From the NCBI RefSeq assembly GCF_003721435.2, contig NZ_CP054585.1, positions 3,038,001 to 3,102,000 of the forward strand: a stretch of DNA of 64,000 nt. Direction: 5' to 3'. The DNA is from Halorubrum sp. CBA1229. Its GTDB lineage: Archaea; Halobacteriota; Halobacteria; Halobacteriales; Haloferacaceae. Below are positions 32,218-39,900 of the stretch, piece by piece (the first letter of the stretch is position 1; the number at the start of each line of letters is the position of its first letter). The translations under genes were made by a program, and so were the position numbers. The notes beneath the pieces were generated by a model. That model saw only the letters and a program-made list of their open reading frames with translations. It was not told the origin of the DNA and did not search any database.

Positions 32218-33237
32218 TTATAAGTAGTCTTCCCAGAGCGGGATGTCCGCGTACTTGTCGCCGCGGTCGCACAGCATGAACACGACGACGTCGTCGTCCG
32301 CGAGCTCGCCCGCCGCGTCGAGGTTCGCCACCACGGCCGCGCCGCCGCCCGCCGAGGTGCCCACGACGAACTGGTCGTCGACCCGGAGGTGCTCGCGGAC
32401 CGTCGCCTCGTCGTGCTGGCCGGGGTCGGCGATCGGCACCGGCTCGTCTAGGTAGCGCTCGCGGAGCGCCCGGGCGTGGTCGTACGCATCCGAGGTGGTG
32501 ACGTACTCCGTCCGGTCGAGCACCGACTCGTCGTACGTCTCGGGGTGGTAGTGGTCGCCCGACTTGAGGTATTTCAGGCCGTCGATGGCGTGGAGCTGCT
32601 CGTCGGGCTCGAATCCCACGACCTCCACCGCGCCGTCGCTCAGGTCGGTCAGCCCGCGGCCCGTTCCGGTGATCGTCCCGCCGGTGCCGACGCCCGCGAC
32701 GAAGTGGGTCACGTCGCCGTCGGTCGCCTCGTAGATCTCCCGGGCGGTCGTCCGCTCGTGGGTGCCGGGGTTGTCCGGGTTCTCGTACTGGTTTGGGCGG
32801 AAGTACGCCTCGGGGTCGGCGGCGATGATCTCCTCGCAGCGCTCGATCACGGCGTCGTAGCCGAGATTGGCGTCGACGAAGTGGATTTCCGCGCCCGCGT
32901 CCCGGACCGCCTCCACCTTACCGCCCGCGGCGTTGTCGGGCATAACGATCTCGACGTCGTAGCCGCGCGCGGCGGCGAGTCGCGCCACCTCGCTGCCGGT
33001 GTTGCCCGAGGTCGGCTCGATGACGGTGACGCCGGGCTCGAGCTCGCCGCGCTCCTCGGTGCCGTCTAACATTCCCTTCGCGATCCGGGACTTGATCGAG
33101 CCGCCGCCGTGCGGGGCGTCGCAGAGGTTGAACCACTCCGCCTTCGCGTACACGTCCGTGTCGGCCTCGAGGCCGAGGTCGAGTTCCACGAGGGGCGTCT
33201 CGAAGATCGTCGACTCGTCGACGACGTACTCGCTCAT
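32218..33237 (-). CDS. PLP-dependent cysteine synthase-like protein (CysM type)
   Basis: Fold-type II PLP enzyme, 339 residues. The Schiff-base lysine is Lys49 in GGSIKSRIAKG, where typical cysteine synthases have S-V-K-D-R. The substrate loop PTSGNTG is at 75-81, and the phosphate loop VGTGGTITGTGRGL at about 182-195. It makes cysteine from an activated serine; the sulfur donor could be sulfide or the thiocarboxylate of the adjacent CysO-like carrier. It is convergent with that carrier, 35 bases apart. It could also be a cystathionine synthase-like enzyme. Confidence 0.88.
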   Translation of the reverse strand: MSEYVVDESTIFETPLVELDLGLEADTDVYAKAEWFNLCDAPHGGGSIKSRIAKGMLDGTEERGELEPGVTVIEPTSGNTGSEVARLAAARGYDVEIVMPDNAAGGKVEAVRDAGAEIHFVDANLGYDAVIERCEEIIAADPEAYFRPNQYENPDNPGTHERTTAREIYEATDGDVTHFVAGVGTGGTITGTGRGLTDLSDGAVEVVGFEPDEQLHAIDGLKYLKSGDHYHPETYDESVLDRTEYVTTSDAYDHARALRERYLDEPVPIADPGQHDEATVREHLRVDDQFVVGTSAGGGAAVVANLDAAGELADDDVVVFMLCDRGDKYADIPLWEDYL

Positions 33238-33387: not shown

Positions 33388-33687
33388 ATGAGTCAACCAT
33401 CGTGGGACGACGTCGTCGAGACGCCCGACGAGCTCGACGACGAGAGCGCCGAGGCGCTCTTGGAGGACGCGACCGAGGTACAGGACATGACCGGCGAGGT
33501 CTGCCCGTACCCGCAGGTCGAGGCGAAGAAGGCCATCGCGGGGCTCGCCCCCGGCGACGTGCTCGTCCAGAAGACGGACCACGTCCCGAGCACGGAGAAC
33601 GTGCCGAAGGCGGTCGGCGACGACGCGACCGCGAAGGTGTGGAAGTCCGGCGACGGCCGCTACCGCATCTTCATGCGGAAGGAGTAA
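33388..33687 (+). CDS. TusA family sulfur carrier
   Basis: A 99-residue protein. After an acidic N-terminus (about 1-30), the TusA core starts at DMTGEVCPYPQVEAKKAI (about 33-50) with the persulfide Cys39 in the CPxP motif (Cys-Pro-Tyr-Pro). TusA proteins pass sulfane sulfur between donors and enzymes. A rhodanese gene begins two bases after its stop, and the YeeE/YedE transporter is nearby, a known association of these families. I start at ATG 33388; a longer frame reaches into the promoter. Confidence 0.93.
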   Translation: MSQPSWDDVVETPDELDDESAEALLEDATEVQDMTGEVCPYPQVEAKKAIAGLAPGDVLVQKTDHVPSTENVPKAVGDDATAKVWKSGDGRYRIFMRKE

Positions 33688-33689
33688 CC

Positions 33690-34025
33690 ATGGTCGAGGA
33701 ACTCACCCCCGAGGAAGTCAACGAGCGCGTCCAGGAGGGCGACGTCCGCGTCATCGACACGCGACCGCCCGAGCAGTTCGAGGAAGGTCACATCCCCGGC
33801 GCGATCAACGTGCCGCTGGGCGACCTCCCGTCGATGGTCCCGGACATCGAGTGGGACGACACCGACGTCGTCTGCGCCTGTCCGATCGGCCAGTCGTCGA
33901 AGCAGGCCGCGATGCTGATCAGCAGCTACGAGGGCGTCGAGGACGACGTCGTCGTCGCCAGCATGGCCGGCGGCTACGAGGAGTGGGACTTCGAGCTGGA
34001 GACCGGCGCGGCGGCAGACGCCTGA
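33690..34025 (+). CDS. Rhodanese-like sulfurtransferase
   Basis: A 111-residue single rhodanese domain. VIDTRPPEQFEEGHIPGAINVPL (key part GHIPGAIN, about 33-40) is the typical substrate side, and the active loop CPIGQSS has the catalytic Cys64, with Cys62 two residues before. It takes sulfane sulfur and passes it to an acceptor, likely the TusA carrier encoded just upstream. Two-gene operon with TusA. Confidence 0.94.
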   Translation: MVEELTPEEVNERVQEGDVRVIDTRPPEQFEEGHIPGAINVPLGDLPSMVPDIEWDDTDVVCACPIGQSSKQAAMLISSYEGVEDDVVVASMAGGYEEWDFELETGAAADA

Positions 34026-34522: not shown

Positions 34523-35731
34523 TTAAATCGCGCAGCCGACCTCGCGGTACATGTAGTGGGTCATCACGTAGACGCCGAGGATGATCCCCGCGCCGGCGAG
34601 GAAGGAGTGCACCGAGAGCAGCGCGACCCCCGAGAAGAGGTTCGCGATGTTGCAGCCGGCGGCGAGCCGCGAGCCGACGCCCATCAGGAGCCCGCCCGCG
34701 GCGTAATTCGGGACCCGGTTCAGCTTCGGCTTGCGGATCCGGAAGTCGCCGGAGGCGTACGCGGCGATGAAGGAGCCGACGATGAGCGACGCGATCATCA
34801 CCATGTCGATGGTCAGCGAGATGTTCCCGTCGCGGAACAGGATCGAGCCCCAGTACTCGACGCTCGCGACGTCGAACCCGGCCCCCGCCAACAGGTAGCC
34901 GGCCCAGCGCGCCTCGCTGCCGGTGATCGCCCAGTGACCGTGCACGTAGAACCAGAGGCTCGCGACGAGCGCCATCGCGACGCCCGCGGTCCGCGCGTCC
35001 CACGAGTCGCGGAGCCGGACCGTCAACGGCCGGTCGTCGTCGCGGAGCGCGCGGACGTACTCCACGGTGCCGTCGGCGATACCGCGTAGCCCGACCGAGA
35101 CGGCCGAGAGCGTCCGCGAGGCGCCGAGCGCGGCCTGCGCGCGCGTGTCGGCCCCCACGCCGCTCCCGCCGGAGGGGTCGTCGGGGAGCCGGCTCCGTCC
35201 CTTGACGAACGCGTACGCGAGTGTCCCAAGCGCGACGGCGCCGGCCCCGGTGACCGCCGGCGAGAACGGCAGGGAGAGGTACAGCGTCCGCCCCTCGAAC
35301 GGGTTCAGCGTCTGGAAGTAGTACGTCTCCGCGACGGGGAACGCGAACGCGAAGAGGACGTAGCCGACGAACATGAAGAGGAGGACGAGCCAGAACTGGA
35401 GGTACCCCTGCCCGGCGCGATACAGCGTTCCGGAGGCGCACCCGCCCGCGAGCGTCATCCCGAGCCCGAAGACGAAGCCGCCGAACAGCGACCCGAGCCC
35501 CCACGCGGGCGTCCAGAAGCCGCGGAAGTAGCCGAACGTCGCCTGCACGCTCCAGAAGACGGTCATCACCGCGATCCCGGCGAGAAGCCCCTTCAGCACC
35601 CGGGTGTCTTTGAACGCGACGAAGTCCCGGAAGGCGCTGACGAAGCAGAACCGCGCCTTCTGTAGCAACACCCCGAACGAGAGCCCGACCGCGACGGAGA
35701 TCCCGACGTAAGCGACGGGCGATAGCATCAT
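34523..35731 (-). CDS. YeeE/YedE family sulfur-compound transporter
   Basis: About 402 residues, two YeeE/YedE halves fused. Half one has ARFCFVSAFRDF (about 22-33) and GGCASGTLYRAGQG (about 90-103). Half two has GSRLAAGCNIANLFSGVA (about 348-365). Cysteines in these motifs are the known relay sites for thiosulfate or sulfane sulfur uptake. A Cys also lies three residues from the C-terminus (GCAI). About ten helices; the linker at about 180-230 is soluble. TusA and rhodanese genes nearby supply likely cytosolic acceptors. Start 35731 or 35728, 25 bases after a TATA element. Confidence 0.92.
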   Translation of the reverse strand: MMLSPVAYVGISVAVGLSFGVLLQKARFCFVSAFRDFVAFKDTRVLKGLLAGIAVMTVFWSVQATFGYFRGFWTPAWGLGSLFGGFVFGLGMTLAGGCASGTLYRAGQGYLQFWLVLLFMFVGYVLFAFAFPVAETYYFQTLNPFEGRTLYLSLPFSPAVTGAGAVALGTLAYAFVKGRSRLPDDPSGGSGVGADTRAQAALGASRTLSAVSVGLRGIADGTVEYVRALRDDDRPLTVRLRDSWDARTAGVAMALVASLWFYVHGHWAITGSEARWAGYLLAGAGFDVASVEYWGSILFRDGNISLTIDMVMIASLIVGSFIAAYASGDFRIRKPKLNRVPNYAAGGLLMGVGSRLAAGCNIANLFSGVALLSVHSFLAGAGIILGVYVMTHYMYREVGCAI

Positions 35732-35753
35732 TAGCGGTGCGGAGTGTTCCCGC

Positions 35754-35761
35754 ACTTAAAA
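35754..35761 (-). promoter_or_regulatory. TATA-like element of the YeeE/YedE gene
   Basis: Minus-strand ttttaagt, about 26 bases before the ATG at 35731. It supports the shorter start over 35755. Confidence 0.5.
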
Positions 35762-35886: not shown

Positions 35887-37263
35887 ATGAGCGACGACTG
35901 CGGATGCGGCACGAACGACGCGACGGCGCGCCCCGCTGACGGCGGGACGACGCCGTCATCGACCGGGTCGGAGCCGCGCCCGGCGAAGGGGAGCGAACTG
36001 GCGAACGACGACCGCCGCAACCCCTTCGCGGACGGGATCGACCGACGCCGACTGCTACAGGCCTCCGGCGCCGTCGGCGCGACGACGGCGCTGGCCGGCT
36101 GTGCGGGCGGCGACGGCGGCGACGGCGACGAGCCCGCGCCGACGATGTTCGTCTTCAACAACGGGGACCGGACGCTGAGCGTCATCGACGCGGAGAGCGA
36201 CGAGCTGCTCACGACCGCGTTCCTCGGGACGACCGCCTCCTTCCCGGCCAACCAGTACGCCACCGGCATCGACGACGAGCACGACGTGCTCTGGCTGAAC
36301 GTCTCCGGCGGCGTCCGGGCGTTCGACCAGCGCACCCTCGAAGAGCTCGCCTTCGTCGAGACGGGGTACGGCCCGAACTACCCGAACGTGACGCCCGACG
36401 GCGAGCACCTCCTCATCGCCTCCGGCGGGACGACCGGGATGGCCCCCGAGGGCGACGAGGCCCACGCCATCTTCCGCGTCGACGCGAACCGCGACAGCGA
36501 CACCTTCGGCGAGGTGACCGACGAGATCGAGACCGGCTACGTCGGCCCCTGCGACATGACGCTCGGCCCGAACGGGGACTACGCCTTCGTCGTCGACGTC
36601 GCCGACGAGGCGGTCCGCGTGCTGAGCGTCGACCCGTTCGAGACGGTGACGCGGGTCGACGCCGGCGAGCCGGTCACCGAGGGGAACGTCCTCCCGTTCA
36701 TGTGCACCGCCTCCTTCGACGGGGAGCTCCTCCTCGTCGAGAACGGCGAGGGGACGCTCGGCGGCGACCCCGAGGTGCCCCGCGAGGGCTCCGAGAGCGT
36801 CTGGGACATCTCCGACCCCGAGAACCCGGAAGAGATCGCGAAGGTCACCCGCGATGACGGGCTGCCGGGCGCGCCGATCACGAGCGAGGTCGCCCCGGAC
36901 AACACGGCCGCGTACCTCTTCATCCCCGGCGAGGGCGTCGGCGTGATAGACCTCGAGGCGAACGAGTACGAGACGACGATCGACGTCGGCGGCAGCAGCA
37001 TCGCCGGCGCGTGGGGACCGAACCGCGAGAAGCTGTACGTCCCCGTGCAGGACGCGAACCAGGTGGCCGTGATCGAACACGAGAGCCGCGAGGTCGTCGC
37101 GACCCTCGAGGCGGGCGAGGCGCCCACTGGCGCGGTCGCCGGATCGGTCCGACCCGAGGAGGACGCGGTGTCGAGCATCCAGGCGTCGCTCGCCTCGCTC
37201 GGTATCACCTTCGGCGAGATGGAGGCGTCGTGGTGCATGGACGACCACTGCTACTGCGGATAG
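35887..37263 (+). CDS. Tat-exported lipoprotein with YVTN-type beta-propeller
   Basis: A 458-residue protein. The first 50 residues are polar and start with a Cys pair (MSDDCGCG). A twin-arginine signal follows, DRRRLLQASGAVGATTALAG, with lipobox Cys72 (LAGC). Residues 80-430 are a beta-propeller of YVTN/YncE-like blades (MFVFNNGDRTLSVIDAES, DEHDVLWLNVSGGVRAF, YAFVVDVADEAVRVLSV). The extreme C-terminus is Trp-Cys-(x4)-His-Cys-Tyr-Cys-Gly. A surface-anchored scaffold or electron/sulfur partner is possible. The next gene starts at the base after the stop. Confidence 0.88.
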   Translation: MSDDCGCGTNDATARPADGGTTPSSTGSEPRPAKGSELANDDRRNPFADGIDRRRLLQASGAVGATTALAGCAGGDGGDGDEPAPTMFVFNNGDRTLSVIDAESDELLTTAFLGTTASFPANQYATGIDDEHDVLWLNVSGGVRAFDQRTLEELAFVETGYGPNYPNVTPDGEHLLIASGGTTGMAPEGDEAHAIFRVDANRDSDTFGEVTDEIETGYVGPCDMTLGPNGDYAFVVDVADEAVRVLSVDPFETVTRVDAGEPVTEGNVLPFMCTASFDGELLLVENGEGTLGGDPEVPREGSESVWDISDPENPEEIAKVTRDDGLPGAPITSEVAPDNTAAYLFIPGEGVGVIDLEANEYETTIDVGGSSIAGAWGPNREKLYVPVQDANQVAVIEHESREVVATLEAGEAPTGAVAGSVRPEEDAVSSIQASLASLGITFGEMEASWCMDDHCYCG

Positions 37264-38355
37264 ATGGCCTCCGATAACACGCCGAGCGACCGGGAAGTCG
37301 ACGATCCCGACAAGTCGGACTCGGCGTCGACCCGGCGCGGGCTCCTGCGGGCCGCGGCGGGCGCGACGGTCGCCGGCGCGGCGAGCACGGCCGGCTGTCT
37401 CGGCGTCACGACGCCGGCGGACGTCGCCGCGCGGAACCAGGTCAGCGGGAACGTCGCCCACTTCGTCGGGCCGAGCTGGCTCGCCGACAACCGCGAGGAC
37501 GTGGTCGTCCTCGACGCGCGCAACGTCGAACGGTTCCGCAAAGAGCGGATCTACGGCGCTCGGCGCGTGCCGTTCGACGCGATCACGAGTCGGCGGTCGA
37601 CCGACGCGGGCCTGGTCCCGGACGCCGAGGCGATCGCCGACGCGTTCGCCGAGGTCGGCGTGTCGCCCGACGACGACGTCCTCGTCTACGGCGCGAGCGT
37701 CGGGTCGCGGGTGACGCGGACCGCGTTCGCGCTCGCGGCGCTGGGTCACGAGGGCGACATCAAAGCCCTCAACGGCGGCCTCTCTGGGTGGAACGGCCGG
37801 CTCGGGACGGGCTCGCGCGACCGGGTCCAGGAGGCCGAGTACGAGCCCGACCCCGCCGAGTCGGCGTGGGTCACCCGAGAGTGGCTCGCCGATCGGGTCG
37901 GCACGTTCAACGGCGACGGCCCGGGTCTGGTCGACGTCCGCGTGCCCGAGGCGTACGTCGGCGCGCCCGCCTCCGACGCCCTCAACCCCGACAACGACCG
38001 CCACGGCCACCTCCCCGGCGCGATCGGCGTCCACTGGGTCGGCAACGTCGCCGGCCGGCGGATGACCGAACCGGGGCGCCTCGTACAGCTGTACGAGAAC
38101 CAGGCGGAGCTCGATCGCGCGGGCACCGTGGTCGTCTACGGCGACGATAACGTCGACCCCACGTCGACGTGGCTCACGCTGCGGGCGATCGGGTTCGAGG
38201 ACGTGCGCGTGTACGACGGCGGGTTCGGCGAGTGGGCGAACGTCGAGGACGACCGCGGCCGGTACCCCGTCGAGACCAAGACCAGCGTCGTCGTCGAGAC
38301 GGAAGGGAGCGTCGGCGGCGACGACGGCGGCGGCGACTTCTCCTGTACGGGATGA
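37264..38355 (+). CDS. Tat-exported double rhodanese without catalytic cysteines
   Basis: A 363-residue protein with a twin-arginine signal (STRRGLLRAAAGATVAGAAS) and lipobox Cys45 (TAGC). Two rhodanese domains follow, about 65-180 and 200-335, the layout of thiosulfate sulfurtransferases. The active loops read VYGASVGSR (domain 1, from Val141) and VVYGDDNVDPTS (domain 2), so the catalytic Cys is absent in both. After a Gly/Asp-rich linker the protein ends Phe-Ser-Cys-Thr-Gly (Cys361). Sulfur transfer by the normal route is not possible; binding or tail chemistry is speculation. Confidence 0.9.
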   Translation: MASDNTPSDREVDDPDKSDSASTRRGLLRAAAGATVAGAASTAGCLGVTTPADVAARNQVSGNVAHFVGPSWLADNREDVVVLDARNVERFRKERIYGARRVPFDAITSRRSTDAGLVPDAEAIADAFAEVGVSPDDDVLVYGASVGSRVTRTAFALAALGHEGDIKALNGGLSGWNGRLGTGSRDRVQEAEYEPDPAESAWVTREWLADRVGTFNGDGPGLVDVRVPEAYVGAPASDALNPDNDRHGHLPGAIGVHWVGNVAGRRMTEPGRLVQLYENQAELDRAGTVVVYGDDNVDPTSTWLTLRAIGFEDVRVYDGGFGEWANVEDDRGRYPVETKTSVVVETEGSVGGDDGGGDFSCTG

Positions 38356-39389
38356 CGGGCGGCGGAAGGGCCGAGCGCGACGACGTGGGCGACGCCGGTA
38401 GCCCGCCCGCCCGCGTCGTCGCGGTCCCCTGCGAGGGCGACGACGCCCTCGCGCTGTTCGCGCTCGCCGACGGCGATCCGCTCGGCGAGGTCCCGGTCGG
38501 GAGCCACCCGGTCCACGCGACGACCTTCGGGGGACGGACCTTCGTCGCGACGATGGGCGACCGGGCGGTCACCGCGGTGGACGCGGACGGCGCCGTCTCG
38601 CGCATCGAGACGGGCGTGCTGGGCCCCTCGCACTTCGCGGCCGCGAACGGCGAGCTGTTCGTCTCCTGCACCGCCGGCGACGCGCTCGCCGTCGTTGACC
38701 CCGAGACGCTGACCCTCGTCGCCCGCGTGGCGGTCGGCGCGGAGCCCCACGAGGTCGCCGTCGCTCCGGACGGTCGGCGGCTCTACGCCGGGAGCCGCCG
38801 AGAGGGCGTCGTCGACGTCGTCGATCCCGCGTCTCACGAGCGGATCGGTGCGGTCGACGTCGGCGCCGACGCCCGCGTGCAGGGCGTCGCGATCGGTCCC
38901 GAGGGAGCCCGCGGCTACGCCGTCGACCAGGCGGGCGCCCGCGTCGTCGCCTTCGATCCGGGCGGGGTCGACGAGCCGGGCGGCGCCTCCGAGGAGCCGG
39001 TTCTCGGCGCGGCCGCGGTCGGCGCGGACCCGTACGACCTCGTCGTCACCGCCGACCGCGTGTTCGTTCCCGGCCGCGAGGACGGCGTCGTCCACGAGTT
39101 CGACCGCGACCTCGGGCTCGCGGCGGTCCACGAGGGGTTCGCCCGTCCCGTCGACCTGTTCCGGATCGGCGGCGAACGCTGGGTGCTCGACGCCGGCGAC
39201 GACCGGCTCCGGTCGCTCGGGGGGTCGGTCGTCGAGACGCCGGCGCCGGGCCTCGTCGCGACCCGCGTCGAAGACCGACTCGTCGTCTCGCACTACGACG
39301 ACGACCGGATCTCGCTCGTCGACGTCGCCGAGGGGACGGTCTGGACGGCGGAGACGCCGGCGTACCCCTTCGGCTCGGTCGTCGTCTGA
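38352..39389 (+). CDS. Cytosolic beta-propeller protein
   Basis: About 345 residues of propeller-like repeats with no signal peptide: VVAVPCEGDDALALFALADG, FVSCTAGDALAVVDPETL, EVAVAPDGRRLYAGSRREGVVDVVD, and similar blades to the end. It overlaps the pseudo-rhodanese gene by four bases (ATGA), so it is translated in step with it. It resembles the propeller of the first gene of this operon but stays in the cytosol. Function unknown; a binding platform is likely for the fold. Confidence 0.85.
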   Translation: MTGGGRAERDDVGDAGSPPARVVAVPCEGDDALALFALADGDPLGEVPVGSHPVHATTFGGRTFVATMGDRAVTAVDADGAVSRIETGVLGPSHFAAANGELFVSCTAGDALAVVDPETLTLVARVAVGAEPHEVAVAPDGRRLYAGSRREGVVDVVDPASHERIGAVDVGADARVQGVAIGPEGARGYAVDQAGARVVAFDPGGVDEPGGASEEPVLGAAAVGADPYDLVVTADRVFVPGREDGVVHEFDRDLGLAAVHEGFARPVDLFRIGGERWVLDAGDDRLRSLGGSVVETPAPGLVATRVEDRLVVSHYDDDRISLVDVAEGTVWTAETPAYPFGSVVV

Positions 39390-39516: not shown

Positions 39517-39900
39517 ATGAAGGTCGCCTACGTCTTCGCGACGGCCGGACAGACCATCGACTACGTGCTCGGGGACATGATCCTCCCGCAGCTCGAGGCC
39601 GGGGCCCACGGCGCCGACGTCGTCGGGATGTTCTTCTTCCACGACAACACCTACGCGCTCCGCGAGGACGACCCGCTGGGCCAGCGGCTCGCCGACGTGG
39701 CGGCCGAGCGGGAGATCCTCCTCATGCTGTGCGACCAGTGCGCGACCCGCCGGGGGCTCGCCGAGTTCGACCACACCGACGAGCACGGGCGCGACCACTA
39801 CGAGCCGACGAACACCGTCGAGGGCGCGACGGTGGGCTGCTTCCCCGACCTCTACGCGGCGCTCGGCGAGGTCGGCGTCGACCACGTGATCACGCTGTGA
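39517..39900 (+). CDS. DsrE-like protein
   Basis: A 127-residue protein with a DsrE/DsrF-like fold: start MKVAYVFATAGQTIDYVLGD, middle GADVVGMFFFHDNTYALRED, and a Cys pair in LLMLCDQCATRRGLAEF (Cys72 and Cys75), plus Cys108. DsrE-family proteins carry persulfide sulfur on a conserved Cys. Its place after TusA, rhodanese, YeeE and the Tat-exported genes suggests it accepts or passes sulfur in the cytosol. It is 127 bases from the propeller gene on the same strand. Confidence 0.82.
   Translation: MKVAYVFATAGQTIDYVLGDMILPQLEAGAHGADVVGMFFFHDNTYALREDDPLGQRLADVAAEREILLMLCDQCATRRGLAEFDHTDEHGRDHYEPTNTVEGATVGCFPDLYAALGEVGVDHVITL

Follow-up and report, generated by a model that had tools for sequence, protein, structure and literature searches.

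A route proposed for Hyphomicrobium leads from an extracytoplasmic carrier to SoxT, an importer of the YeeE family, and from there to Rhd442, DsrE3C, and TusA, with SoxYZ, together with a DsbA-like protein ending in a C-terminal CxxC, acting as the outside donor (PMC11582611). The substrate Cys of SoxY lies in a C-terminal GGCGG motif (PMC6067878), and a Cys relay through YeeE to YeeD has been shown in part (PMC11073785). For the delivery of sulfur to YeeE-family importers from outside, DsbA-like and SoxS donors have been proposed only (PMC11582611). The module described here offers a specific, genetically testable candidate in culturable haloarchaea. One of its proteins, rhoD, seems to be a former enzyme with a new role, possibly as a sulfur carrier. 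A search of literature outside subscription journals yielded no description of a rhoD-like protein and nothing on point on SaoD/DsrE or on rhodanese tail-Cys carriers.

Export signal, rhodanese domains, and active-site loops

The window analysed is a stretch of 64,000 nucleotides from Halorubrum sp. CBA1229, and its relevant features are listed in Table 1. The rhoD ORF encodes 363 aa, and its ATG directly abuts the stop codon of the upstream gene. PF00581 (Rhodanese) matches the protein twice in the Pfam search (5e-30), and according to the profile match to 3hzu (E 1e-34) two rhodanese folds span the whole chain. The N-terminal stretch TRRGLLRAAAGATVAGAASTAGC45 combines a Tat motif with a lipobox, of which T23, R24, R25, L28, A43, G44, and C45 are invariant among 29 orthologues; the original prediction of an exported double rhodanese is thus borne out. 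The DxR at the end of beta-1 is also invariant in both domains (D84-R86 and D224-R226, 29/29), which together with the full-length profile match agrees with the earlier claim that the fold was kept. An AlphaFold model built from eight sequences was too poor to use (mean pLDDT 41).

Table 1. Coordinates of rhoD, its parts, and the neighbouring genes in the window
Feature	Coordinates	Strand	Evidence or remark
Cysteine synthase-like PLP enzyme	32218..33237	-	PF00291 5e-50; TIGR01136 8e-72, below its cut-off
TusA/YeeD-like protein, CPxP motif	33388..33687	+	PF01206 1.4e-12
Small cytoplasmic rhodanese, Cys loop VVCACPIGQSSK	33690..34025	+	PF00581 1.6e-18
YeeE/TsuA-type sulfur importer, divergent	34523..35755	-	PF04143 8.5e-55
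propA, Tat-lipoprotein beta-propeller with Cys-triad tail	35887..37263	+	
rhoD	37264..38355	+	Tat-exported lipoprotein, two rhodanese domains, loops without Cys
Tat motif TRRGLL through lipobox TAGC45	37330..37398	+	Sequence
Domain I loop YGASVGSRVTR, residues 142-152	37687..37719	+	No Cys; alignment to solved rhodaneses
Domain II loop YGDDNVDPTSTW, residues 292-303	38137..38172	+	Gly293 at the catalytic Cys position; aligned with YCRIGERSSHTW
Gly/Asp-rich linker, residues 341-358, variable	38284..38337	+	Not more conserved than the protein as a whole
Tail FSCTG with Cys361 (codon 38344-38346)	38338..38352	+	Invariant in 29/29
propB, beta-propeller, no evident signal peptide	38352..39389	+	Start overlaps the rhoD stop (ATGA)
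SaoD/DsrE family protein	39517..39900	+	NCBIfam NF040913 189 bits, cut-off 152

Regarding the active-site loops, the two Cys-less stretches were located as claimed, VYGASVGSR at residues 141-149 and VVYGDDNVDPTS at residues 290-301. The further claim that both domains had lost a catalytic Cys does not hold. According to profile alignments, the solved double rhodaneses 3hzu, 8k55, and 3hwi have YCRIGERSSHTW in domain II and no Cys at the corresponding point of domain I, so that a loss of two catalytic Cys is ruled out and only the domain II residue has been lost. Gly293 takes the place of the catalytic Cys of the Cx4-5R/T loop in 29/29 orthologues, and the Cys-based sulfurtransferase loop is therefore gone, as had been stated. 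With this defining catalytic feature absent, rhoD is, as judged from sequence, a homologue of two-domain rhodaneses and not an active rhodanese. The only Cys residues of the protein are C45 of the lipobox and C361, the latter third from the C-terminus after the Gly/Asp-rich stretch, exactly as first described.

Conservation of loops and tail, and the probable order of events

Relatives of rhoD were searched in whole genomes of the class, of its own family (170), of the family of a second genome, G029 (125), and of the phylum. The comparison set comprises 29 sequences from 28 genomes (G206 has two copies) in six genera and two families, with orthologues in 22 Halorubrum genomes and five other genera. 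Viral contigs, when scanned, yielded no relative. Neither loop holds a Cys in any of the 29 orthologues, which rules out a single decayed copy or chance, and the alignment of homologues suggested earlier thus found no member of the clade with a retained loop Cys, while the tail Cys is present in all 29 and in G029. Among the 318 residues of the mature chain, 92 are invariant. Loop I has 8 invariant residues of 11 versus 84/307 elsewhere (p 0.003), loop II has 7/12 (p 0.03), and the tail FSCTG has 5/5 (p 0.002), all three p-values serving as guides only because related sequences are not independent. Both loops are therefore enriched in invariant residues, so a function persisted once the Cys had been lost. 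The TGT codon of the tail Cys was considered as unusual and dismissed, because TGT accounts for 44% of the Cys codons across this gene set.

The relative in G029, a genome from another family of the same order, is 40-41% identical to rhoD, is directly followed by propB, and has YeeE and TusA near. Its domain II has YCVSGEFASNTW, with YCVSGEFAS in the loop, and its C-terminus reads DAFSC, so that it carries both the domain II Cys and the FSC tail end. No propA was found in G029. The tail Cys is missing and the domain II Cys present in paralogues of about 35% identity, namely L044-L059 and three further tandem copies in G029. In G029 (L040:6164-11033), four tandem double-rhodanese lipoprotein genes have as neighbours YeeE, TusA, and an MBL-rhodanese ORF, which on visual inspection looks like a persulfide dioxygenase.

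The tree joins the Cys-less proteins in a single group (93/92) that excludes G029, which points to a single loss of the loop Cys in the whole clade. Since the G029 relative has both residues, the simplest reading suggests that the tail Cys was gained first and the loop Cys lost later, with the root and the placement of the long G029 branch being uncertain. The series would then run from canonical proteins (loop Cys only) through an intermediate (both, G029) to the derived state (tail Cys only).

Gene neighbourhood of rhoD

The order propA-rhoD-propB, consecutive and with YeeE divergent from propA, is found in the window and in 15/15 wide orthologous loci, the adjacency of YeeE having been checked wherever contigs reach far enough. 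Of the 170 genomes of the family, 27 carry rhoD, and 27/27 of these have a YeeE orthologue (at least 68% identity). Only two other genomes have this YeeE orthologue; both are fragmentary assemblies, and in one the reading frame of rhoD is broken. TusA, the small Cys-bearing rhodanese, and the cysteine synthase lie close to the cluster in many orthologous loci, the cysteine synthase-like gene being conserved beside it in 9 other loci. As for DsrE, it is present in 19 genomes, 16 of which have a full rhoD match. A broken cluster was observed in G135 (L107:5630-7944), with propA in two pieces, fragments of propB and YeeE, and rhoD without a match, a pattern that looks like joint decay of the module.

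Residues C36, C105, and C367 of YeeE are invariant and match C22, C91, and C293 of the published protein by order and motif (PMC11073785). Besides these three transport Cys, a further invariant one, C407, lies two residues from the C-terminus of the haloarchaeal YeeE. Against the curated TsuA model the importer scores 145 bits (cut-off 400), and thiosulfate is only a candidate substrate because the score is below the cut-offs of that model. The highest-scoring model for it is that of a selenium-associated YedE, also below cut-off. The same genome contains a second, split YeeE-type pair (L120, G000:C1:2197406-2198350) of two short PmpA/PmpB-like ORFs, adjoining an ORF that resembles a metallo-beta-lactamase-type sulfur enzyme.

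The tail of propA, WCMDDHCYCG, holds C450, C455, and C457 (37234-37260), all invariant, in the pattern C-x4-C-x-C-G, which in other genera becomes C-x3-C-x-C-G-H (YCIGxCACGH). The solved sequences closest to propA are a YVTN S-layer protein, hydrazine synthase beta, and NirF, and the triad is possibly a metal site. Genes for propA with the triad also occur in many haloarchaeal genomes without rhoD, in several genera and varied gene contexts. As for propB, it has two invariant Cys and is probably cytoplasmic, since it has no evident signal sequence.

Proposed role, alternatives, and known systems

We consider it an even call that rhoD is an extracellular, lipid-anchored pseudo-rhodanese of a haloarchaeal sulfur-import and assimilation module, whose Cys361 arm feeds the YeeE/TsuA importer. 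The rhodanese folds, with their constrained loops, would bind partner proteins, a sulfur anion, or both, and the sulfur-handling Cys would now be on the C-terminal arm (Cys361, FSCTG). Sulfane sulfur would most likely be loaded onto this arm in persulfide or thiosulfonate form, possibly through exchange with the triad-bearing tail of propA, and would then be offered to the importer next to it at the entry Cys on the outer side; on the cytoplasmic side TusA, the small rhodanese, and DsrE would receive the sulfur and cysteine synthase would use it. The route proposed for SoxT in Hyphomicrobium follows a comparable logic (PMC11582611). Our data establish the export signal, the missing domain II Cys, the conserved loops, tail, and gene order, the strict co-occurrence of rhoD with the importer, and the existence of a relative with both Cys. 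We infer the sulfur loading of Cys361, its transfer partners, and the direction of transfer. A carrier function for Cys361 on its arm is itself a balanced proposition. The original prediction had left both a swinging tail Cys and a pure binding role as options, of which the gene neighbourhood and the G029 intermediate favour an active tail Cys. Somewhat more tentative, at a little under even confidence, is the claim that a sulfurtransferase shifted its reactive Cys out of the active-site loop onto a swinging C-terminal arm and thereby became a carrier that supplies the YeeE importer with sulfane sulfur outside the cell. If true, this would clearly exemplify the transfer of a catalytic residue onto a mobile arm, with the intermediate state still extant.

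The lone exposed Cys361 could equally be linked to propA by a structural disulfide or share a metal site with it. A structural docking role, ranked next after the carrier role, appears rather unlikely. In a fuller version, to which we also give a minor share of belief, the inactive rhodanese pair would be a docking or anion-sensing module, and a disulfide or thiol tether between Cys361 and the propA triad would hold an extracellular complex. Such a complex fits the position of propA directly before rhoD in the Cys-less clade, the invariance of C450, C455, and C457, the kept catalytic Cys in G029, where propA is missing, and the general view of inactive rhodanese domains as interaction modules (PMC10135228). 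However, G029 has the tail Cys although propA is absent, and the triad has another purpose because propA keeps it in many genomes without rhoD. It is improbable that Cys361 and the triad form a metal (e.g., copper) or selenium site and that the module handles those elements rather than sulfane sulfur: the propA tail does resemble a metal-site motif, and the top-scoring YeeE model is the selenium-associated one, but no selD above cut-off is present in the genome, and TusA, the cytoplasmic rhodanese, DsrE, and cysteine synthase indicate sulfur.

As for decay, by which rhoD would be a former rhodanese under relaxed constraint and its tail a by-product of the propB overlap, we give it next to no credence. 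The stop codon of rhoD overlaps the propB start (ATGA) in Halorubrum, the last codons overlap in many species, and part of the tail's nucleotide conservation may be translational in origin. However, the tail peptide is retained in L092, L095, and G029, which have a different overlap or none, and its Thr codon varies, which makes it unlikely that the overlap alone accounts for the conservation. According to simple counting, dN/dS is 0.24-0.43 in ten of eleven rhoD pairs, and the value of 0.69 in one distant pair, like the broken cluster of G135, is what decay might leave behind. Against these stand the one Cys loss common to the whole clade and the loops and tail exceeding the rest of the protein in conservation. 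The tree, dN/dS, and loop and tail conservation thus largely refute this reading.

Compared with two-domain rhodaneses and 3-mercaptopyruvate sulfurtransferases (3hzu SseA, 8k55, 1urh, and 1rhd), rhoD shares the full-length tandem folds, the DxR in both domains, the Cys-free domain I loop, and the TW after the domain II loop. It differs from them in having Gly for the domain II Cys and no Cx4-5R/T loop, in being an exported lipoprotein, and in carrying an additional Gly-rich tail that bears an invariant Cys. In class 4 of PMC10135228, inactive rhodanese domains are fused to other domains and likewise have no loop Cys, whereas rhoD has two rhodanese domains, the second one inactivated, no unrelated domain, and a Cys on its tail; it fits none of the four rhodanese domain classes listed there. 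The module also resembles the YeeE/TsuA-YeeD/TsuB thiosulfate uptake system (PMC11073785), where a Sulf_transp importer with three conserved Cys lies beside a CPxP TusA-like protein, but its importer scores below the curated TsuA cut-off, has an exported rhodanese and propellers as partners, and carries the extra C407. SoxY, the SoxYZ carrier, is like rhoD extracytoplasmic, with one Cys near the C-terminus on a Gly-rich arm, and is tied to a YeeE-family importer (SoxT) with a cytoplasmic rhodanese, DsrE, and TusA (PMC6067878, PMC11582611). The two proteins have different folds and no homology: the SoxY fold (PF13501) is absent from rhoD, for which Rhodanese is the sole Pfam match. The Cys third from the end of rhoD follows a Gly-rich arm and lies in FSCTG, not GGCGG. 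A SoxY search of the genome gave no match, with an uninformative control search. Thus, rhoD resembles the swinging arm of SoxY by analogy, in mechanism if the carrier reading is right and not in ancestry.
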